From Apostichopus japonicus (lineage: Eukaryota; Echinodermata; Holothuroidea; Aspidochirotida; Stichopodidae), in assembly GCF_037975245.1 (NCBI RefSeq), contig NC_092563.1, positions 14,372,001 to 14,436,000 of the forward strand: a stretch of 64,000 nucleotides of DNA. The letters are read 5' to 3'. The position numbers were made by a program, and so were the translations under genes. The notes under the pieces were generated by a model that saw only the letters and a list, made by a program, of their open reading frames with translations, ran no database searches and was not told where the DNA came from. The stretch's first letter is position 1. Every line of letters begins with the position of its first letter. This document shows positions 33,857 through 61,255 of the stretch, one piece after another.

Positions 33857-41728
<7,872 letters not shown>

Positions 41729-45885: not shown

Positions 45886-47006
45886 TGTTCGGCTCCCCCG
45901 GAAACCAGCTGACGCCAACTACCGGCGTTCCATGTTTGATTGCCGATGCATATCAGTGGATTCTATCATTGGGTGGTCTGAAATACAATAACAATGATGT
46001 TTATTGATTTTCATTTTCTTCCATTCTAAAATCCCATAACTGAAATGCACTTTCACACATAATTACTAAGCTCTGCCGCAACAACATCCACCAGAATATA
46101 AAAGTAGGTGTGTCTCATTTCAATGGTTCCCATACATAACCAGAAACAAAACAACCAGGAAAAACCGACTACCATAAAGTTTTGAACGAGCTAATGCATT
46201 TTGCTAAGCACTTTACCGACATAGTCTGTATGGTGTTTATCTACTCAAATATTTTGCAGACGGTTATGTGCTATAGTTCAGAATAGATATGGAGCTCAGC
46301 CTTTCCATGAATCGTTCGGAATTTGAGAGTTTGCACTGACAAAGATAAACGTTCAATTTAAATTACGTTAAGGATTTTTGGAAACCAGTCTTTTTTGCCT
46401 ATAGTAAATGACAATGAAACTTTTGTATTTTCAAAAATACCATCACGTACATTGCCGTCACTGAAACTTGAGAGTACAAACTGCATAGGCCTATATAAAA
46501 CATATATAAAACCATAGAAATTATTATACACTTGTTGACGAGAAACGTTCGTTCTTTATGCGTTCCAAAAGAAACATCACAACATTCGTTAGCCATGATT
46601 GCGTAATATGATACACGAGTTTTCACCCCAAAATATGTATATTCGCACACGGTCTTCTACTGGGGGTATAGGCCGAGATTAATGACCCGACAGAAAAATG
46701 AAAGTGAACCATAGAACAACAGTTTTTGGATGAAGTCCCAACCTGTGTACACTTAAAGTTCTTCGTGGACAAGGACCTTACTTTCGAGTCCTAACTGCTA
46801 TCGACTCAACGTTAAGCCTAACCGCTGTAGGCCTACTTCGAATACAATTGCTGGTGAGGTAGGCTAATGTACATTCACTCTCTCTATGTCTGTTTGTGGA
46901 ATCTTAGGTCTAAGTTCTAACGTTACAGTAAGTACAGTTTCGGTAGAGCTACCCCAAAACCTCACTTAAAGAATCGCCAAATGCTTACAGAAGTAGGGTT
47001 TGGCTA
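45886..47006. other. Intergenic, no gene seen
   Basis: AT-rich sequence with no recognised exon, between the decayed inverted-repeat element and the left end of the CACTA transposon. Confidence 0.5.
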
Positions 47007-47033
47007 CACTGTAAAAAAAATAGCACTGAATTC
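47007..47033 (+). repeat. Left terminal inverted repeat of the CACTA element
   Basis: CACTGT, eight A, TAGCACTGAATTC. It pairs with 60420-60446 in inverted orientation. A CTTGAAT-type subterminal word begins inside it (gaattcaag). Confidence 0.8.
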
Positions 47034-48782
47034 AAGCAAAATAGACTGGAATTTACGGCGTCATTTCAAGCGCTGCACACTAAGTCAGTCCCTTGAATTA
47101 AGTGTTAACATACTAGAATTCAGCGGTTATGTTAGTTACAAATATGCACTGAACTTCAGTAACACACTGAAATTTAGTGAAAAATGCTTGAGTCTACTGT
47201 ACCAGTTCAAGCACTGATGCACTTAACCAGTTCCTTGTATTTATTGCTAACTACTGGATTTGAGTTGACTGATCAATTGATAGCTGTGTCAAAAATTTTC
47301 AGGTTTATGTCTTTCTGTTCAATAGTGCATTATATGATTGAAATTTTGTGACTGTGAGATGTCCATTGTTCTTATAAAAAGTTTGCCATTCATTTTACAG
47401 GATTACGTGAAGATACCCAAAATTATCGTGTCAGTCAATAACTATTAGTATTCAATGTTACGTCTCAATCAATTGAATGTTAGGAATAACTGTCAACTCT
47501 CCCCTACTTCATTCAATTGCATCACATTTATTGCTACCCTACTAACATTAACTCTTCCCCACCCCCACCCCTTCATCTCAAAACAAACAGTTTGTGAATC
47601 TGCACAACATTTGAATGTAATGTAAGGGTCAAAATAGCAAACTTTATGGTGTGATACAAGGGTCAGCCACATCACTTCCCAAATTTGCTGTCAAATTACA
47701 AAAAAAAATTTCATAAAATTGCAAAGCACTTTCATCGAAGAATGTGACTGCTCCTGCTGGAAAGGCCACTATAAAACTGTAAGTAGTACTTTTCTGTAGT
47801 CCTTCTGTACCATACCTTAAGCACACTTGTAAAACATTTCATTTAAGGATTAAGGAACAGGAACCCAGAATTAACTGTATGACAACACTGATTCATGGTC
47901 AACCAGCTGTCCAAATATAGCAGAAAAAAAGAAAACAAGTCATTGCTCATGGTATCACTTCTTGTTGTGAAAAAGACTTCAAACTATTACATGATATGCA
48001 AAATGCCCAGTGGACCATAAACAAAGAATGGAAAACAAAAAGGGATGTGCTAAGGCACAGTTATGCACATTATTCCACACTTTGGTATGTTGCACAAACT
48101 TCTACAATACTTGATATGTCTCTAACATAAATAACAAGATGATATAAAGACATAAGTTTACCCACAATAATGAACTTGGTTGAAAAATAATGGCAGGAGC
48201 AGACAAACAGTTTCTCTTTTTTTTAATCCATGCTTTGGTTCCTTAATGAAGCATTGTTAATGTCAAGGCCATCATTGGATGTAAATATTGCAAATTTTGC
48301 TCTTTAACATGTTGTAACCTCTTTGAGAGTTAACTTGACACATTTTGCTGTCCAATAAAACAAATGGCCAACTTACTGATATTATTATTTAAAGGAAAGG
48401 TTACTGTTGCAACCAAAACAATTATATGCAAGTCAACACAATTACTAGTAAAAGTAATTAACAAAATACAGTAAGTCTTTACTGTGCCACAAATTTTAGG
48501 AGGTTTTTTACTCTTTCCTCTTACTTGAGAAATAATCAGCATAAACAGTATTTGCCACTTCTTTAATCATAATGATATCAAGTTTTTTTTTCAGGGTGCA
48601 CTGTTAAATAGAAAGGTTTGGAAAATGTGTAACTCCTTATTGAGCCAGCTAGCTGCTCAAACTTAACAACTTACATGTTTGACTTTACCACGAACACTTT
48701 TAATGTATCTTAAATCTTTGAAACATATTTACAGAGGCACAAGAAAGGAAAGTTTTAAGGGAGTGTTTTCAAATTCCCAACA

Positions 48783-51700
48783 CTAACATGAGTTTGCCAA
48801 AAATTTGGCATATCTAGAGACCTGATTTCGGTAACTAGAATTCTTGGATGTGTTGGCAGAATTGATGATGAATTCATCGAGGAATGCATATGCATTTGCT
48901 GCTTGCAGGGGAAACTCCAACTGAAATGCATAGTAGGCTGCACACAAAGAGACCACAGCCTTGCTAACTTCATCTCTCTTTAGCGTAAGGATTGGTACAT
49001 CCTGCTTTCCCATCAGGATAATGTCAGATGTTGTTACCAAGAGGAATGGTGTTGATTCATCACTGCAATCCTGGAAGTGTAAAAAGATTTGACACAATGA
49101 CAAAATATAGTAATATACTGTAGGTCTTAAACATGTTTTAAAAATATATCTAAACAAATACAAAGACCTGGCATGAGATCACATGTACTTGTATTTTAAT
49201 TTTCAAGCTTGTCCAATACAATTCCGTAACTCACCTAGCCTTATAACAGAATCGGACATCATCACAGATGTAGTCATCATCAATGCCAATATTTAAATAA
49301 TTTGTATTTGGGTGTTGTTGTGGGTGAATTTTTTATTTAAGAAAAACATGACTTTCAAGAGGTCATTGTACAATACCTTGCCATAATCTTCTCTTGTGAG
49401 AAAGAGCTGTTGTTTGGCGGGTGACAACCGCAACTTCCTCTTTGTAATAAACACATCACACAGATGTGTGATGGCCACTATTTCAACATCTGTTAAGGAA
49501 AGGAATGTATCATGTAAGGAATGTATCATATAGAAATGAATTTACCAGTAGTAATAACTGGGTTTGATAACCTTGCAAACCATTTGACCCACACTCTCAA
49601 AAAACTTACTGCTGTTGTGGGCAATGCAAGCTTTTAAAACAAAATTCCAATGTATACTATCAGCAGATCAGCAGAAATTTATTATTTTGTTGCAAAAATT
49701 GTCATTGTCAACTATTACCGAAAGTTTATAGACTTAGACAAACATCTGATATTAATTACCAATAACATTGTGAGAAATGGCATTGAAATTACTGTAATCA
49801 AAATTGAGCACTTATTTTGCATTCCTGGCAGGAAATGCATAAAGTTACTGGTTCTACAGCCCAAGTTCACTTGCTAACAAAAATACATAACTCAAAATGA
49901 ACATACTGTACCAACCATACACTGTAGAAGCTTCAAACAATTGCTCTAGTTATAAGTGTTAAAGCATTGAAGAGACTCCAAAAAACATAACTCACATTGT
50001 TATATAGTGAGGGAACCAATCAAAGATTTATACACATTCACATGCATAACTTGAGTTCACAGCTTCTTTTGCCATCAGCAACAGAACAGCAACAGTTGTA
50101 GTTAAGTAGTTATCGTGCAACAGAAAGACATGTTACAGGAGTGCAGTGAAGGTTAACATTTGCAAGCTCTGTAGGCTAACAGGTGTACTCTACTTTTTCT
50201 TATTGCACAGTTGCGATTCAATGCATTTCTAACTAATGCATGTCATTGTTTGACTCTGGTCAACGTTCTGTCATCAACCTTGCATCACTCACAAACTATT
50301 TTTCTGATGTTTCATCAACAACTGTTCATAATACTTACCGGCAGCTTCTGGTTCTTCTTCTATTATGTCGACTTGACACATGTATTTTACCAGAGACTTT
50401 GCATGTTTGTCAAAATTTGTGATGAACTCTGCTGTTTTTGATGCAAGTGGATATGTTCCCATCATCATCAGCATCTCGGCAGCAAGCTACAAAAGTATAT
50501 AAACACAGCAAGAAAAATGTTTCTTTTGTACAAGACATGATGCAAGTTACATCTGAGTTACCAACATTTTCAAAACGTTAACTGCCTTTATTCATCATTC
50601 ATAATATGATACAGGAATGGGTCAAATTGGGGAAGTGACCTATGGAGAGAAGGTCATTAGGCAATGCCTGGGATCAGAAGGCATACTAGCTGATTTATTC
50701 CAGATCATCTTCTCCAATTTCTTTTGTTCACAACAGAAATTTGGGGAAAATGATCAGAAATACAAAAGGTAGTGCCATTTTACTGTTTTGCCTTAGGGTA
50801 TCCAACTCTCGTTTCAAAATCTTGAATAATTGAGGGGACAATATTTTGTAATTTTTAATTAAATGGTTGAAAAGGAATTTTCTTTTTCTGCGAGGATCAA
50901 TGTGCACACAAACAGGATCATTGAAATGACAATCAATTACAAATGGTTATTCTTGTTGAAGAATCTTCATGTTAATTGCTGTAACATACACTTGTAAACC
51001 ACACCAGCACAACATACACAATAGACCATTGCTAGTCATCTTTAACTGCAGATTCCCCAAAAATATGTGATTTTTAATATGTTCATATTTTACCTTTTCT
51101 GAATCACCCAACAGGGGATAAGACTTTAGGGCTAGCTCAATTCGTTTGTTGGCTTGAAAATCCATGATAATTGTGTTCCGCTTTTTGAATGACCTCACAA
51201 AGAGATCGTTAACAATTTCTTGTGGGGCGCCATGATTCATGGCTTTCAGCAGCATTGAATGGTGTTTCTCAACTGCCTGCATTGACTCCTCACCTACATG
51301 TGAAATTGAAACAAGATGATATATTTAATGAATGTTAACAACTTTACCCAAAAGTGTCCTACAGAAAGCAGGTACATGCAATGAAGCATCACTGCAATGA
51401 GGATCAGTTACAATATCCATTTATAGCCACGTTTTGGATTATTTAAGGCAGGCTATCGAGATAGTTTTGTTAAAGAAAGACATTTAAAACATTCCTTAGC
51501 TTTTATTATTTTATAGTTTTTACCTTCATCAAGCTCTTCTGTATCTTCTTGTGAGTCACTGGTAGTGTCCACTTCAGAAAACCGTTTCAAACTTTGGCGT
51601 TTGTTTTCAAATGCCCGTGACAGCTTTTTGTACACTTCAAGCTAGATAAAAATACGTTAAGAAGAAAAAAATTCGTTAAGAAATTGCTTTTGTTCAAATA

Positions 51701-54700
51701 ATATTATAGTACCATTGAAATGAACCAAGAAACGATAAAACATTTAAGCTGTAAGTTCTTAATTTCTCACATTTAGTTAGATATATCATTATGCGAGGAG
51801 TAGACAAATAATGCTGTTTTGATGGATTTGCACTTATTTTCACTTACAGACATTGAGTTTCTGCCCATCCTTGGTACTTCAAGGTTATTGTTTCTACTAG
51901 CAAGGACATTAAGTTTCAACTTACCTCAGGTTTGAAATTTGGTAACTCACTTGGCACTGGAAGCCCCATCTTTTTAAGTGATTCATATGGGTGTTTTAGT
52001 GCCAGTGCTTCTGGGTACTTGTTGACCAATGCTCCTGCTAACCATTTTCTTGTCTGGACACTTGGGTTGGGACACTTCACCCAAACATGGGTTCTGACAA
52101 TGTCGATGACAGCATTGAGTTCCTTCGCTGATAGATGATTACCTTCTTTCAGTTTTTTGTCAAGGGCTGGTCCAAAATATTTGGGCAATTTGAAGTTATG
52201 TCCAAGTTCCTTTGGGTCGTCAGACTGATTTGCTATTTCAAGTCCATGACAACTGGATGATTGAAAATTAGCAACTGCATTCTGCCTCTTGAGTGGCACT
52301 GGTATAGATGGTGGGCTGAATGGAGAGTCAGAAAGTGCATCTTCTGTATCTGATGACACTGTTGCTGGTGAAACACAATGGGTTGGTGAAACACAAGGGG
52401 TTGAACTTGGAGTAGACACCTCAGAGAAACTCCCTTTGGAATGTTTACATTCATCCTGGCATTGAGAGACAAATATAGATGGGAGATAACAAGAAGATGC
52501 TTTGAAGTTCCCTTAATATTAAATATTATTACAACATAATTTCTGAGCAAACTCTAAAATAGTACAGCAGGACTTAACCTTCTGTTGCAAATTTGATATA
52601 TAACAACATTTATTACCCTGCCTTTATGCAGTCAAAATCTTTGAACTGTTTTCAAATTTCCTATTTACATTGTTTCCTATTTAAATTGTCCAAATGTAAG
52701 TCAATAATATATGCCATTCACTTACCTTCACAATTAACAGAAAACTGTGTAAGTCTTGTCGGATTCCAAAGAAGAGATCCCCTGGGAAAACTTCTAATAG
52801 ATCGTCTCTTGTTAGCTTAAGAAGGCGTGACCCACTGATATTGCAAGCTAAAAAGGGAAAAGCATGAACGGAAAATGAGCTTTAGTTTGTAGGTTATGAG
52901 GTCAAGAATGTTGTGACATAATGTTTACACCTTAGGTGATGTTATTTCTCTGAAAATATGAAATTGTGGGGAGAGGGATGGGGTAAAACATGGATCAGAT
53001 ACATTCACAAGTGGGGTGTCGAAATGTTGAATTTTGTTATTTGCAAAGTCAAGTTCTCCCTACCCTTAAACATACCTCATTTATTAAAATGTAGAGTAAT
53101 TGAGAAAATGTGTATATTTATTATTTTGGGATTTGGGTGGGTGGGGAAGGCGCTCATACAAATGTATTTTCAAAGCATTGTGAATGCATAAAGTAACCAA
53201 TGATACCATTAAAAGGTCAGAATTTGTATTCATTTTGTCACATTATTCTTCTGCAAAACTTAGAAAAGTGGTTTTCATGGGTGGGAAAGAACATGAAAAC
53301 TGAGCACAAGCTATATTAGAACATGAGCTAATGTTTGAAGTGAAACACAATGTGACCTGTTTGAGAACCAACGGTTTTTAAACCACATAGGAAAGGTTAG
53401 AAGTAATAAACTTATTAAACACCAAGGGCTGTACAGTAGTTGTCAAATAATAGAATATCCAATATTGACCTCAAATAATCTTTGACCTCAATAAAAACAA
53501 AATATCATCTTCTTACTAATGGCTTTTTACATATCCAGTTTGACGTTCAAGCAATTAACCATTCTTGAGATATTGTATTTTCAAATCAGATTGAACTCCA
53601 ATGATCTTGGACTCCAAGAAACGTACTACAAATAATCTACTCACTAAAGGCTACTTAAGGTATAAGTTTGGAGTTCAAGCAAGTTCCTTCTTGACATATA
53701 GCATATACAAAACATTCAGATGTTATTGCTTTTTATTGCAATCTGACCTTTGACCTCCACAAAAAACAACAGGCTTCTTGTACTGATTGTCACAACTACA
53801 CACTGAATGAGATTGGTCCAAGCTTCCTTTCTTGTGGTATGTTTTCAAGGTTTTCACAATTTGACCCCTGGTGACCTCAAATGACATTTGATGTCCCCAT
53901 AAACAATAAGCTTCTTCAACTTAATGTGGTACTCCTCCTCACAAAATAGGAGCTTGATCTAAGCTTCCCTTCTTGAGATATCATGTTTACAAGCAAGGGG
54001 TCACACATACACACACTGCCCTGCTCAGACCCTATTTAACACAATGTGAAAAAAATTTGGACTTGACTTATCCTTCCTCTTGATCTGCCTGCTCTAAAGT
54101 TAGTTTTCCAACAAACTTTCTCCCAACAAAAATTTCTGCAATTAAATCTATGATGATTAAAGAAATGCCTCAGTAAAAGCCTTCTGCTGATGCATCTCAT
54201 TTACCTTTTCATTTCTTATTATTTTATTGTAAAACTTATTTGTTGACAAAGCCATAACATGGTGATATGGCGCAATGTTGCAAGTTCTACAATACTCATA
54301 ACATCCGGGCTTCACGTGATTGTTCGTACTGGCGGACCGGTCACATATCAGTTACGATGTGTATAAGGAATAGGATTCTGGCCTATACTAAGTTATACAG
54401 CAGTGGCAAATAATGCATCACCTGAAAATCTACATAAATCAAGATAGCTACCGTAAAGATAAGCATCCAATATATTAAAAGGTAAAGTTCATACTTTTTA
54501 GCAAAACTTACGTAACGTTTTGAAAACGTCAGTCAACGGTATGAATGAATATAATGCCAGAGAAAAATTTCGTGACAATGCAATCGTCATAAAGTTTGCT
54601 ATACTTCCAACACGATAGGCTATTATTCATCTGTAATCAGTCGGTAGACTCGTGAGGGTCTTGAACATTGCGGCATAAACTACACGAGTTAACTGATTAC

Positions 54701-54850
54701 TTTAAATACCGTAGTTACAACAAAAGAATCCTTACCTGAAAAACGTTCGTCTACTATAGCACTCTCTTCTTCGGACATGTCTAATTTAGTCACGACAAGA
54801 CTTGCCGCGGCCGAAGGGTCCAGACACTTCAGGCTTTCCATCGTCGCCAT
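48783..54850 (-). CDS. SAM-domain protein of the SAMD3-like family, probable CACTA accessory gene
   Basis: Eight coding exons on the minus strand: 54736-54850, 52726-52847, 51925-52455, 51524-51641, 51094-51293, 50339-50486, 49377-49489 and 48783-49070. All junctions are GT-AG with matching phases (1, 0, 0, 1, 0, 1, 0), giving 544 residues from MATMESLKCLDPSAAASLVV. An in-frame ATG at 54916 would add 22. Residues about 15-78 form a SAM-like domain (LTRDDLLEVFPGDLFFGIRQ). A Ser/Pro/Thr-rich linker follows, then conserved blocks typical of SAMD3-like proteins: TRKWLAGALVNKYPEAL, LSRAFENKRQSLKRF, FKKRNTIIMDFQANKRIELA and LKSYPLLGDSEK. The C-terminal part resembles the variable tail of this family (QDVPILTLKRDE). 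It is divergent to the transposase and inside the same terminal repeats, so I infer a transposition role. SAM domains usually mediate oligomerisation. Confidence 0.85.
53460..54030. repeat. Degenerate tandem repeat of about 140 bp with TGACCTTTGACC-like words
   Basis: Roughly four diverged units. Each contains a form of (t)gacctttgacctc, then aacaataggcttctt, then ccaagcttccttcttgagatat and ttttcaagg. Clear cases lie near 53480, 53745, 53870 and 53960. It lies in the first intron of the SAM-domain gene. Confidence 0.6.
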
Positions 54851-55901
54851 CGAGGTAAATGATCGTCGCACGCAATTGCCAGATACTGTAAAGGTTTCCA
54901 CTCTTTGATGAAACATCTCTATCAGATGGGCGCAAACAATCTCAAGAAATTACGTAACCCATATCCACCGTTCGGACAAAGGTAAGTAATTAACAATTGT
55001 ATTTATCCTGGTAGTGTAAATTCATTTAGTTTGCAACTTTTTATACATTTGTTGCCACTTGACGAATTGGTAACGATTTTCCGTAATACTGTTCATGATA
55101 TTTTCCTTCGAAGTGGGGACACTGGCAGGTGTACACATTACTGTTACTCACGTTAGTTGTAACAGAAACGACTAGATCCTTGCGGAAACTTCCGAACAAA
55201 AAGTGCGGAATACTGGTTTTGCTTTTATGTTAAATGCGCTTGTGTACATATTGCGATATGCATGTGTAAGATAGGCTCAGCCACGCAGGAATGTTGATGC
55301 AACTCCATAGTTAGTTGAAGTATGTAAAATAACCAAACATGAGAAGAAACGGGGGTGTGGGGGGGGGGTCGGGCAATGCTAGATCTTACCAGTTAATGTC
55401 CAACACTGGTTGGAGAAGTTAACTGATGACAATCCATTGAAACTAGTCTTTTGTAGATATCACGTTTCATAAATTGTAAGCAATTATTAATATTAACAGT
55501 GTATTTGGTGTGATTTACACAAAGCAATATGCCATGATGAATTAACACAACTTGTTTTGAAATTCCAGCAAACTTGATACAACTTGATATGTTGATACTT
55601 GACAACCGGAATAGTCCTAACAATGATTACATAGCTGGTCACTTGACTGGCAGTTGATAGGTTGAAGGTCGTGCATGCAAAATCTATATTTTACGGTTAA
55701 GTCCAAGAATTAAAGATGTTTAAAGGCATATGAAATTAGCTGGAAATGCCCTTTAAAATGTATAGTAACAAAATCATAGTTCTGATTAAGTTGGCTAATT
55801 GTGTGGTTACAATTACTCACTGAGGTACAGTGCTAGTAACAAATGAACACAGTGCAACACACATAAATATGAGTAGAACTTTTTTTCCTCTTCAGATTGC
55901 C
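54851..55901. promoter_or_regulatory. Shared upstream region of the two divergent transposon genes
   Basis: About 1.05 kb separates the SAM gene start (54850, minus) from the transposase start (55902, plus). The transposase start codon follows a pyrimidine-rich splice acceptor (ttttttcctcttcag, ending 55895), so at least one 5' untranslated exon should lie within this interval. No TATA box was assigned. Bidirectional use is inferred from the layout. Confidence 0.5.
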
Positions 55902-58900
55902 ATGGATATTGAGCAGGAAGGGAGATGGATATGCTTTTCCTGTGCAGCTTCCAACATACTCCTTCCCAATCCCTCACTTACTGATCTCCTACACCATGTT
56001 AGATCCCCACATGGGTTATATCCAAACTTCAATCTAGTATGTGGTTTTGAACATTGCCTGAGGAATTACAAAACTTTTAAAGGTATCTGGAAACACATGA
56101 CAGAGGTCCATCCTCATTTCTTTCTAAGTGGACCAGCACCTAACAGCCCATACCTTTATCCAGCTGCCCCAGGTATTCTTGAAAATGCATTGGCATATCT
56201 TAGACTTGTACAAGAGGATCATGGATACATGCAAGATATTGCTAGGCCACTGGTAAGAGAACCTGACGAAGAAAACTTTATGGAAGAGGATGAAGAAGTT
56301 GGACAAGAGAATCATGCTTACATGCAAAATGTTGCTGGGCCTCTTGTCAGACAACCTGATGAAGGTGACGCTCAAAACGTAGAGGGTACATTAATGGCCC
56401 ATGAGGGGGATCAGCAAGCAGATCCAATATTGGTTGTGGAAAACAACAATCAGTGCAACCACTTAGACAAGTACACAACTGCTAGTATGTTTCTGGCTCG
56501 TGTTCAGCATAGAAGCTGTCTTCCTCAGGCAACAGTGGATAACATCAAAGACGAAACATGTGCGCTAGTGCAAAATATATTACAGAGATTACATATAAAA
56601 GTAAATTCAGCTCTAGAGGGGTACTGTTCCCCTGCATTGATGAACACTGTTTCAGAATATTTTCAGGATGAAATCAATCCATTTGACGATCTTGACACAG
56701 CATATCGACAGAAAAAGTTTTTCGAGACACTCTTTCCTCTTGTGGTGAGCATACAATTATGGTTTATCTTCATTTTTATTGTAATGGCAAATGTTGGAGA
56801 GGTAATCTTTTAGTGGTGGTGTTGGCTGAAAGGGTGCAAAAGACATATGCCATACGAATGACACATCTTGTAGCCATATATTCCCCATGCTTCCCTATTC
56901 GCCCACCCCACCCCTCCCCCTCCCAAAAAAAATTACCAAAATTAGGGGACTTTGGTTGAGTTTTTCCACCAGACACCCGAAGTTGATGCATTTTCACTAT
57001 ACAGTGTGTTAATGAAATAAGTGAAATTAATGAATTGAAGAATTCATGGTTAACTCTTGTGAAGTCAAAAGCCTCAAAAACTTAAGTTTAAATAATTTTT
57101 TTTTTTTATAGTTTGCTTAATCAGTTTGTGGTTTAAACCAAATCAATACCTAACCTTCTTACTAAACATTAATCATCATTTTAATATTCGAATGAGCCAC
57201 TTTAGTATGAACAATATTAGTGCAACCAATGTTTCAACAGTATTGTCATTATCTATTCTACAGAAAGCAAGAGAAGGATTTCTTGGCAATCGTCTGCTTT
57301 TTAGAGGTGCTGGAGACAGGCGAAGAAGAGTAATGGTTCAGGATTATTTTTACTATGTGCCTGTGTTGGAACAATTGAAAGTGTTATTATCTAATCAAAG
57401 GTATCTTAAAGAAGTGGTTAAAAGGCAGCACCACCAGAAAAATGCAATAATGACAGACGTGAGCAATGGTACTATTCTAAAAACACATGAATTATTTTCT
57501 AGAGCAGGGACCTCCTTGAAGCTTGTTCTTTACTATGACGACGTTGAATTGTGTAATCCAATAGGGACGAGGCGTATTAGACATAAAGTTGGTTTGTTTT
57601 ATTACTCTATTATGAATCTTGCTCCTCAGTATAGATCAAAAATGGAATCAATAAATTTGTATGCAGCAGCACTGTACAGTCACATCAAAGAGCATGGTCT
57701 TGATGTCATCCTAAAACCCTTTCAGCAGGATCTTGAAAGTCTTGCTGATGGTGTCACAATTGAAAATGACACGATGGTCACTGGGGCTCTTCTTGCTTTT
57801 GTTGCTGATACACCTGCAAGCCATTTAGGTGGCGGGTTTAAAGAAGGGGTTGGGTTCGCTTTTCAGAAATGTCGACATTGCAATGCTGATGAGGTGACAA
57901 TGCAAGAAAGTTTTTCTGAATCTAATTTCAACCCAAGATCTTTAAAATCTCATGAAGAGCAATGTAGATTGATTGAGACAGCTCCTAATACTGAACTTCG
58001 TAGTCATTATTCTACTGTATTTGGTGTGAACAGAAGAAGCATTATGTGCGATTTTCCTTTCTTCGATGTTACACATATGCTTCCACAAGACCTCATGCAT
58101 GTTTTCTTAGAAGGAATTTTGCCATTTGAACTGAAATTGTTCATTAAGTATTGTGTGCAAGAACAATTAACAACTATAGACCAGCTAAATGCTGGTATTA
58201 CATCATTCCCATATGGCTATTACCAAACAAGAAACATTCCTAAGCCAATCAGTGAGAATGTAATCAATGACAATGCATCACCTCTTATTGATGATGCAAT
58301 TAAGATGTGGACCTTGTGTAGGATTGTTCCATTTATAGTGAAAGATCTTGTACCATCAGAGAATGCGCACTGGCAAAATCTGCATCAAATTCTACAAATA
58401 GCTCATATTTGTATGTCATGCGTAATAAGTTTAGAAACAGTGAGTGTTTTGAAAGAACTCATTTCTGAACACCTTGCTCGATTTAAGCTTTTGTATAATC
58501 GACAAATTACCCCAAAGCAACACTACTTGATTCATATGCCAATGCTCATTGTCATGTATGGTCCACCAATAAGGCTATGGTGCACTAGATTTGAAGCTAA
58601 GCACAGATTCTTTAAGAAAATTGCACGACTTGGAAATTTCAAGAACATTGCCAAGTCTTTGTGCGAGAGACACCAGAGTCTGCATGCAACTAACTTTTTG
58701 GATGACCAACTGGATGGATCGTCTTGCCCTTTGTTCACAAAACTGGAAATTGGGAAATCTACAGCTCTCCAAAATAACGAATATAGAATGGCTGTTAATA
58801 CTCTATACCTTCAGGGTGTAATGCACAGAGATCAAAATCCTGTACGAAGCATATCAACAGCAAAATGGGTTGTTGTGTTTGGCATTAAGTTTGTTGCAAC

Positions 58901-59204
58901 CGTATCTGTGGTTCTATTGGGTTTTGACAAAGAGCGTGAACTACCAAGTTTTGCAAAGGTAAGCCAAATTTTGGTTGTTAATTATAATAAGATAATTTTA
59001 CATTGTGATTGCTTGCAAACAATTTTTTATCATGAAAACCTGCTCTCATATGAGATTGCAATTCCTGATGTGGAGAAAGAAATGTCATTGCTTATTGACA
59101 GTGACTGTCTTCCCCTACATGAAGTAGCACATATTCTTCAGTTTGGAGCAAAGAAATATGTCAATTTCAGAAATAATATTTCAGAACTGTTAAGTCAGGC
59201 GTGA
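55902..59204 (+). CDS. EnSpm/CACTA (tnp2-like) transposase with N-terminal zinc finger
   Basis: Two coding exons, 55902-56744 and 57264-59204, joined in phase 0 across a GTGAGC…CAG intron, give 927 residues from MDIEQEGRWICFSC. The N-terminus has a CFSC knuckle and a C2H2-like finger (VCGFEHCLRN…HMTEVH). An acidic linker holds two diverged copies of HGYMQDIARPLVREPDEE. The second exon carries the transposase core: LVLYYDDVELCNPIGTRR (first acidic site), YSIMNLAPQYRSKM, KPFQQDLESLADGV, FVADTPASHLGGGFKEGVGF with KCRHC, VTHMLPQDLMHVFLEGILP (second) and RLWCTRFEAKHRFFKK (likely glutamate). This order follows the Pfam tnp2 transposase pattern. Role: cutting at the CACTG ends and reinsertion. The frame is intact. 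Acidic residues are assigned by eye, not by alignment. Confidence 0.85.
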
Positions 59205-59621
59205 GAAAGAATATCAACCAGACAACCTATTTCTACCCATATTCACCCATTATTTGTTACTGTGGTTTCATGAATAAGTTGCAATTGGATGAAATATAGG
59301 TATGGTGTCATGTACGTCTCGGATTCTTGAAAACATATATTTACAAGGGCATAGTGGCTACAGAAACTGCACAGAGATCTTTACTTTGATAACCAGAAAG
59401 CCAAAAGGCTGAGTAATTCACAATTGCACCAATTCCTTTTGCCTGTGGAGTTATTTGTAACATTTTAAGCATAAAGTAAAAACATGTACACTGTTGGAAA
59501 GAGATGTGCCACACAATTATTCCATGCTTTGCAATGTATTAATGTATGGCCAATTGTTTTAGTAAGCTTTAATTGGGTTTTGAAGTTAGTTCAACATGCT
59601 TGTCACATCAAATTATAAAGT

Positions 59622-59627
59622 AATAAA
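59622..59627 (+). terminator. Likely polyadenylation signal of the transposase gene
   Basis: AATAAA on the plus strand, 418 bp after the stop codon, just ahead of the TTAA-type MITE insertion. No competing AATAAA was noticed between it and the stop. Confidence 0.5.
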
Positions 59628-59694
59628 CAAGTTGAGTTTGAAGTGTTCTGTTGAGTCATCATTTTATTGTCATATTTCAATTAACTAGAGGAAT

Positions 59695-59880
59695 TTAAAG
59701 GGTAGTACGACTCGGCGCGCAAAAAGAAACGTCTAATGCTGGTAATATGACCTAGACTTTTGAATGAGGTGTAACAGAAGTGTTAGACACCACCATTGAT
59801 ACCAGAAAGTACACACACAGCTTGCTACCTTCGGTAGGTGTACAGTCAGTACATGTATACAGCTGTGGTCACTGCTCAAG
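59695..59880 (-). mobile_element. TTAA-type MITE, truncated copy 2
   Basis: Starts TTAAAGGGTAGTACGACTCG and reads as the reverse complement of the right half of the copy at 62539-62906 (gtgttagacaccaccat, acacacacagcttgctacct). Similarity ends near 59880, where the other half is missing. It is nested inside the CACTA element downstream of the transposase gene. Confidence 0.7.
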
Positions 59881-60419
59881 CCACTTGGTGGCTTAGAATC
59901 CTGCTCGCAGAGACTGCATCTGATGTTTGCTGTGAAAATGCACTTCACTTCTATGAGTAAGCACTGTTACATATGTATATGGATTTACGGCTGGTAAGGT
60001 TGAATGCATCATAAATTTAAGGTAGGCAGCCTATAAGTTAACATTTGAATGCAACATCATGTGTCTATACCAATTCCATTCAAAATCAAGATCTAACAAT
60101 GACTATGATCCCATTCCATAGCATTTAATTGTGATCATTTGAAGTCTTGCTTTTGGATGTTACTACAGTACTGTAATCCTATGGGCCAAGTTCACTTGAA
60201 TCTAGTGAAACCAACTAAGCTAGCATAACTATACATACTGTACACTTAAATTTAGCACAAACCTTTGCAACACACTTGAATTGAGTCTTGTTATCCTATC
60301 ACTAGAATTAGGTGATACCACAAAACCTAATTCGCAGTGTTTCTTACTAATGTCCAGTAAGTGACAACTGAATTGCAGTTGGTGCACTCAATTCAAGTAT
60401 GCTGGGGTTTAATACTCTA

Positions 60420-60446
60420 GAATGAAGTGCTACTTTTTTTACAGTG
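60420..60446 (-). repeat. Right terminal inverted repeat of the CACTA element
   Basis: Read on the minus strand: CACTGT, seven A, GTAGCACTTCATTC. Inverted partner of 47007-47033. Confidence 0.8.
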
Positions 60447-60650
60447 TAGGAACTCTAACTCAAAAAGAGTCCAGCCTAGTAAAAGTAAGACAGATCAGAT
60501 TCAGAGTTGAAACTCCTGCATTGAGATTGGGACTCCTCCAGAGTCCATAATGACATTAAAATGGAGGACACAGACTTCAGAGCCTAAGCAAGAATCTGTA
60601 AAACTTATTTTGCAAAAGTCGTATATCAAAGTTGATTCAAATTGTGGTAC

Positions 60651-61255
60651 AATTATAGAATACAGGGCCATTCATTAACTCTTCCCAGCATCCGGATGCG
60701 CGGATGCGCGGTGAGCCTGTACATGTCCGTATAATTACACGTAAAACGCCCTCTAAAATTCCATCACGTATTTCATTTTGACTCCGCATCCGCGCATCCG
60801 CGCATCCACCTCGTGAGTACTAGGAAAGGACTTAAATAATTTTCGAAAGTTTCCCCATATACCATCACGTATTTCATTTTGACTCCGCATCCACGCATCC
60901 GCGCATCCACCCCTGGAGCACTAGGAATGGACTTAAATAATTTTCGAAAAGTTTCAACATATACCATCACGTATTTCCAATACTGAAAGTCCCGTATGTA
61001 CGAAGATATTCCACATCAATAGTGTGTCGTTCTTAAAAGGCATCCGTACATGTGCGACGCCCACTAAAATTCCGGAAGTACTAGGAAAGGACTTAGGAAA
61101 TTTTTGACTCCGCATCCACGCATCCGCGCATCCACTCAAAAAGAAAGAACTGGGACTTTGACATTTTTTACTTACATATGTACTGGGGTGAGACTGAGCA
61201 TCCGCGCATCCGGATGCTCAGATAGAATCATCGAGTGGCCCTGTATTCTATAATT
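60651..61255. mobile_element. 605-bp inverted-repeat element rich in GCATCCGC
   Basis: The ends AATTATAGAATACAGGGCCA and TGGCCCTGTATTCTATAATT are perfect 20-bp inverted repeats. Just inside, CATCCGGATGCGCGGATGC is mirrored by GCATCCGCGCATCCGGATG. The interior has about three imperfect copies of a roughly 107-bp unit (gactccgcatccgcgcatcc, tactaggaaaggacttaaat, ataccatcacgtatttc). No coding sequence. The target duplication is unclear. Confidence 0.75.

Follow-up and report, generated by a model that had tools for sequence, protein, structure and literature searches.

A complete-looking, two-gene transposon of probable EnSpm/CACTA type in Apostichopus japonicus, with a RAG1-like predicted transposase and an inverted partner gene

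Positions 47007 to 60446 of the window, the 64,000-nucleotide stretch of Apostichopus japonicus DNA under study (C3:14372001-14436000), probably hold one complete-looking, low-copy, cut-and-paste transposon of the EnSpm/CACTA type, within the CACTA/Mirage/Chapaev or CACTA/Mirage/Chapaev/Transib (CMC/CMCT) clade. We read this element of ~13.4 kb as a two-protein system, in which the transposase would act together with a TnpA-like partner whose gene is inverted in this lineage. The interval has matching inverted ends, TA on both flanks, subterminal palindromes, two predicted genes, and one sibling copy elsewhere in the genome (671,581,487 bases in 35 contigs were searched). An earlier reading of the same DNA from its letters alone, here called the sequence-only reading, had proposed a complete-looking CACTA/EnSpm-type element with two divergent, multi-exon, open genes, one of them encoding a partner of the sterile alpha motif (SAM) type, and that description held up. 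The predicted transposase gene has two exons on the plus strand and an open frame of 927 amino acids. The predicted partner gene has eight exons on the minus strand, running from 54850 down to 48783, and an open frame of 544 amino acids; the two genes are divergent, with the partner inverted and upstream of the transposase. Gene models were predicted from splice signals, open frames, and homology, with exons chosen by eye and without RNA, and the introns of both genes start with GT and end with AG. No third gene was apparent among 49 stop-to-stop frames, not all of which were searched for relatives.

Both termini carry CACTG. The first 27 bases agree with the reverse strand of the last 27 at 24 positions, the same count as in the sequence-only reading, and in a self-BLAST of 14.5 kb the termini paired at 29 of 33 positions (47004-47036 with 60449-60417; E = 2.8e-5). 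TA lies immediately outside each terminus, also as first described. Subterminal words had been noticed as well, and both ends carry an imperfect palindrome, CACTnGAATTnAGTG. Counting either strand and allowing up to three mismatches, we find 14 sites within the outermost 600 bp, 5 in the 12,840-bp interior, and 13 in the remaining 50,560 bp of the window. After base shuffling, the ends gave a mean of 0.24 sites and a maximum of 3 in 500 shuffles, and the enrichment is post hoc and partly a matter of construction, as the consensus was derived from these same ends. Across the whole window the excess is only mild, with 39 sites where 27.5 would be expected, a count reached in 3 of 100 shuffles. 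Finally, a 21-bp pattern from the ends occurs without mismatch, genome-wide, only at both ends of this element. With up to two mismatches the pattern occurs at 10 places, against 6 for a backwards control, in a search that allowed no insertions and so misses the end of the sibling copy, which has one extra A.

Two further sets of repeats resemble the ends. On contig C9, identical 21-bp near matches to the element end stand at 23437269, 23582693, and 23728366, at a spacing of ~145 kb, and may perhaps belong to a large tandem duplication. In the window itself, ~100-bp tandem-like repeats at 36660-37260 include three copies of CACTGAATTTTAGTG, which is close to the subterminal palindrome.

Membership of the transposase in the CMC/CMCT clade is supported by its sequence. 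Thirteen relatives encoded elsewhere in this genome, at 26 to 31% identity, were aligned with the window protein, and D92, D182, and E444 of exon 2, together with C203-x2-C206 and H420-x3-H424, proved invariant across all 14 sequences. The signature of the CMCT clade, according to PMC12730594, is C(2)C and H(3-4)H placed between the second D and the E of a D-D-E triad. The cysteines and histidines of the C2H2 fingers in exon 1 are likewise in register with relatives, and a profile of the transposase family, in which the row for the window lacks exon 1, matched GLI fingers in the PDB at 1.4e-6. An AlphaFold model of exon 2 (predicted local distance difference test [pLDDT], 79.8; predicted template-modeling score [pTM], 0.84) had RAG1 as its best Foldseek match, at 4.1e-10. 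By VIA-align, the model superimposed on RAG1 with a Z of 20.6 (4.3 Å, 414 aligned), on BbRAGL with a Z of 14.9 (5.8 Å, 429 aligned), and on Transib with a Z of 13.5 (4.4 Å, 375 aligned). What the transposase has in common with RAG1/RAG2, ProtoRAG (BbRAGL), and Transib is the predicted fold of the catalytic core, and the structural matches to RAG1, BbRAGL, and Transib come at ~10 to 15% sequence identity.

The sequence-only reading also called the transposase tnp2-like. The clade signature and the predicted RAG1-like fold support a transposase of the CMC clade, but the HMMER test proposed with that reading failed for the window protein, which had no match to Transposase_21 (PF02992) at E ≤ 1. 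Transposase_21 was matched at that threshold by 5 of the 14 aligned members (best, 2e-5) and DUF4218 by 2 of the 14; one of two further relatives reached Transposase_21 at 6.8e-4, short of the cut-off, and the other had no match. The element could instead belong to another CMC/CMCT lineage, such as Chapaev, Mirage, or a relative of the fungal ESTA elements, and the start in CACTG instead of CACTA, the TA flanks, and the missing Transposase_21 match of the window protein would all suit such a placement. ESTA takes its name from TA duplications, according to PMC12730594. We consider a separate lineage unlikely, however, given that some relatives match Transposase_21 and DUF4218 and that a related family has a TG as well as a TA duplication, and we retain the EnSpm/CACTA type.

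How the transposase ends is suggested by structure prediction. DNMT1, MET1, and ZMET2 contain BAH domains, and residues 493 to 629 of exon 2 aligned with the BAH1 domain of DNMT1 with a Z of 8.2 (4.2 Å over 101 residues; VIA-align). The tail was also modeled alone, from 16 sequences (pLDDT, 80.2; pTM, 0.73). Foldseek then gave a best E value of 0.012, with BAH proteins in 45 of the 50 rows shown and viral spike and PARP1 chains in the other 5, and all 50 rows shown by VIA-align were BAH proteins, the best with a Z of 7.8 (4.0 Å over 94 residues), just below the caution line of that method at Z 8. Pfam BAH matched none of the 16 members, and a profile of the transposase tail had no sequence relative in the PDB up to an E value of 10. 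We conclude that the tail is predicted to have a BAH-like fold, which is not the same as a demonstrated histone reader. A literature search by title and start of abstract, with subscription papers mostly outside its reach, found no transposase with a BAH domain.

The N terminus of the partner is weakly SAM-like. SAM_PNT matched a 66-amino-acid open frame containing exon 2 at an E value of 0.001, below the 24-bit cut-off, and exons 1 and 2 together at 0.0021 (SAM_2, 0.05; SAM_1, 0.06; all below the cut-off), and the match to the whole 544-amino-acid protein, at 0.041, was below it as well. In the PDB, the sole match up to an E value of 10 was Sfmbt, at 0.76. The partner may also bear some likeness to vertebrate SAMD3-like proteins. 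The same literature search found neither a SAM domain with a CACTA/EnSpm transposon nor any work tying SAMD3 to transposons.

The last exon of the partner has homologues among the terminal exons of second genes from other families in this genome, and thus the partner, judged on that exon, is probably an inherited gene of the element. When each of six hand-picked members was left out in turn, a profile built on the remaining five recovered it in every case (5.6e-5 to 7.1e-10; window, 4.2e-8), and reversed decoys reached at best 0.63 in the window run and 0.045 across the six runs. As a single query, the window exon found one of the other hand-picked members at 2.6e-4. Against the whole genome it found 15 weak non-self places (E values, 0.014 to 3.7), 9 of which coincide with places that the exon of another family also found, and 6 of those 9 resemble copies of one family. 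The last-exon profile had no sequence relative in the PDB below an E value of 0.67. Middle exons were also recovered by leave-one-out for four of five families, at 3.4e-6 to 0.002.

Where second genes were seen in related elements, their position was consistent. Sixty-seven transposase matches were listed, with 66 of 314 candidates scored, and 150 last-exon matches. Among the listed transposase matches, 33 are followed downstream on their own strand, at a distance of 3.9 to 14 kb, by a last-exon match, compared with a mean of 0.2 under random placement; within 20 kb no last-exon match lies in any other arrangement, in a search blind to the exon of the window element itself, and 34 of the 67 have no last-exon match. 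Conversely, 114 of the 150 last-exon matches lie near none of the listed transposases, and these may point to further transposase families in the genome or to second genes that stand alone. Seven families were read closely, four of them with coverage of only ~9.9 kb downstream; five have the last exon and two have middle exons only, in every case downstream and on the transposase strand. An inverted partner was seen only in the window element and its sibling. Such an orientation and position, unlike those of second genes in related elements, might be expected if the SAM-type gene were captured host cargo with no role in transposition. SAM domains are common in host proteins, and a search of the genome with the whole protein returned 11 rows, 7 in the window, 3 in the sibling copy, and 1 at an E value of 0.84, such that the partner was found only in the family of the window element. 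The homology of the last exon to second genes of other families nevertheless makes cargo improbable, and an inherited second gene remains our preferred interpretation.

How the element has fared in the genome can be read from its copies. The left 294 bp are found in at least one place and the right 347 bp in at least two. The other copy, at C17:~18,666,525-18,676,677, matches 51684-60446 in pieces and has its right end at the same base as the window element. The sequence-only reading proposed checking whether both ends and both genes travel together; the C17 copy fits on the right side, where it shares the boundary, and keeps remnants of either gene, and its left part is missing. Aligned codons of C17 contain 6 stops, and its coding sequence has 21 length changes that are not multiples of three, including one at the start codon; the window frames have neither. 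Lesions confined to C17 would be very unlikely under equal decay, and the window copy therefore stayed functional until recently, either because it inserted recently or because selection maintained it where it lies. The two copies differ at 5.5% of aligned noncoding positions (241 of 4395). The rate of synonymous substitution (dS) is 0.053 for the transposase and 0.074 for the SAM gene, and the ratio of nonsynonymous to synonymous rates (dN/dS) is 0.545 and 0.64, respectively.

An open, autonomous-looking copy had been called unusual, and that claim failed. No stop interrupts 59 of the 67 listed transposase matches, a figure that describes the matched stretch and not whole elements, and two families have copies that are 99.4 to 99.5% identical. 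Family f872 (C7:3541611 and C3:18522044) is ~15.3 kb long, its copies are 99.5% identical over 15.2 kb, its ends read CACTC.../...CAGTG, and its two copies have TG and TA duplications. Copies of family f841, on C10 and C12, are 99.4% identical over 18.0 kb; the right end of f841 was not found, and one copy enters a stretch of N. By these comparisons the related families look recently mobile. It is very unlikely that the host took over one or both genes, with a single-copy locus under selection and ends that are relics. In favor of such a takeover, the window copy is the sole open copy found of its family, beside a badly broken sibling, and dN/dS is below 1. Against it, a ratio of 0.55 to 0.64 is what a transposon lineage would show when measured against a defunct copy, the terminal repeats and the 14 subterminal palindromes are in good condition although the host would not need them in order to use the proteins, and related families look recently mobile.

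Family f841 also has an ATG exon, MDFVEEKLREWGLERFLPAFQ, at L013:4204-4267, 360 bp from the left end and upstream of the transposase. A GT donor follows the exon, and its phase equals that of SAM exon 1 in the window. A second SAM exon was not found in f841, and its first exon had no Pfam match. A genuine exon here would place the transposase inside intron 1 of the second gene, an arrangement known from maize Spm.

Several results weigh against a complete EnSpm/CACTA-type transposon with two proteins. To the missing Transposase_21 match must be added the absence of the left end from the C17 copy. No near-identical copy of the window element was found, in searches that give lower bounds, and no empty site was found among 40 of 147 candidates scored with the flanks joined by one TA; 2 of the rows were the locus itself and 38 were a short repeat of the right flank. 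Recent mobility, which the sequence-only reading had suggested, is plausible and lacks both of those signs. No nonautonomous derivative was found with the 21-bp end pattern at up to two mismatches, a search that misses insertions and whose places were not followed. The SAM assignment of the partner is based on Pfam matches below threshold, and among first exons of second genes in other families (n = 4), one matched PB1 (0.0062) and one SAM_TNK (6.9e-4), both below the cut-off, and two matched neither. Moreover, the window element escapes a middle-exon profile built on four other families. Twenty of the 33 transposases with a downstream last exon belong to the family of the query itself, with the other 13 spread over several families. 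Finally, the last-exon query missed the window's own exon, such that equally diverged inverted partners could escape.

The element may be compared with known systems. Plant CACTA elements (En/Spm with TnpA/TnpD, Tam1, and Tgmt*) are alike in having short CACT ends, repeated family-specific subterminal motifs, and a transposase with a second, poorly conserved protein, as described in PMC2613891. According to that paper, TNPA of maize Spm/En recognizes subterminal repeats, its motif binding is demonstrated, and transposition requires both proteins; lengths are 8.3 kb for Spm/En and 20.5 kb for Tgmt*. The window element differs from plant CACTA in having two separate divergent genes instead of alternative splices of one transcript, 2-bp instead of 3-bp flanks, a partner with a SAM-like start, and a transposase with C2H2 fingers and a modeled BAH-like tail. 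SmTRC1 and other animal TRC/CACTA elements are also animal members of the superfamily with a Transposase_21-related protein, and in the accessible portion of PMC1636069 SmTRC1 has 2-bp direct repeats at the ends of 7 of 14 copies and relatives in a sea urchin. TRC ends start with CCC, however, the characterized copy is ~4.7 kb, and that portion mentions no SAM or PB1 partner. Fungal ESTA/EnSpm elements share C(2)C and H(3-4)H, duplications of 2 to 3 bp (presumed for the window element), and an extra gene beside the transposase, but the extra gene encodes a TET/JBP dioxygenase, according to PMC12730594.

How the element might move can be outlined from these features. The element would move, or would recently have moved, by cut and paste, with the transposase cutting at the CACTG ends by means of its RAG1-like D-D-E site. 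The N-terminal zinc fingers would partly recognize the element ends, and the BAH-like tail may tether the transposase to nucleosomes. SAM and PB1 domains are capable of head-to-tail self-association. By analogy with plant TnpA, the SAM-type protein would be the second factor and would gather at the subterminal palindromes, and its self-associating N-terminal domain would help to unite both ends; we infer from the same analogy that the partner binds the palindromes and bridges the ends. The second gene, ordinarily downstream and codirectional in related families here, would in this lineage have been flipped to a position upstream of the transposase. We speculate further, and only tentatively, that there is an animal CACTA lineage in which a RAG1-shaped transposase has its own BAH-type histone reader for selecting or avoiding chromatin, with a modular partner that fills the place of TnpA, swapping SAM and PB1 at its N terminus and keeping its C-terminal domain constant; in the window element, inversion of the partner gene would then have created a divergent pair.

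Coordinates of the element and its predicted features are collected in Table 1. Beyond the right end, a short stretch at ~60629-60693 recurs at at least 38 other places in the genome with 92 to 100% identity, and a 119-bp direct repeat pair, 91.6% identical, lies at 60758-60977.

Table 1. Features of the candidate transposon, in window coordinates
Feature	Position	Strand	Basis
TA, left half of presumed 2-bp target-site duplication	47005..47006		Read directly
Left terminal inverted repeat, CACTGTAAAAAAAA...	47007..47033	+	24/27 against right end
Left subterminal palindromic sites, CACTnGAATTnAGTG	47024..47266		Motif count
SAM-type exon 8 (includes stop codon); C-terminal domain conserved among second genes	48783..49070	-	Leave-one-out E 4.2e-8
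SAM-type exon 7	49377..49489	-	Predicted
SAM-type exon 6	50339..50486	-	Predicted
SAM-type exon 5	51094..51293	-	Predicted
SAM-type exon 4	51524..51641	-	Predicted
SAM-type exon 3	51925..52455	-	Predicted; broken version in C17 copy
SAM-type exon 2, second half of SAM-like domain	52726..52847	-	SAM_PNT E 0.001, below cut-off
SAM-type exon 1 with ATG, first half of SAM-like domain	54736..54850	-	Subthreshold Pfam match with exon 2
Transposase exon 1 (includes ATG), with a pair of C2H2 zinc fingers at ~55932-56111	55902..56744	+	Open frame, splice signals
Transposase exon 2, RAG1-like D-D-E core (57537 D, 57807 D, 58593 E)	57264..59204	+	Alignment, model
BAH-like C-terminal domain of transposase	58779..59201	+	Predicted fold only
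Right subterminal palindromic sites	60193..60429		Motif count
Right terminal inverted repeat, ...TTTTTTTACAGTG	60420..60446	-	Boundary identical in C17 copy
TA, right half of presumed target-site duplication	60447..60448		Read directly

RAG2 carries a histone reader. The window element differs from RAG1/RAG2 in that no RAG2 was seen and a predicted chromatin-reader-like domain lies in the same chain as the core. If our interpretation is right, a RAG1-shaped core joined to a chromatin-reader-like tail in one protein would parallel RAG1 with its reader in RAG2. Animal CACTA elements are less studied than those of plants. Should the interpretation hold, animal CACTA elements too would rely on two proteins, the second of them conserved and built quite differently, and this genome, rich in related elements, would be a place to test the idea.

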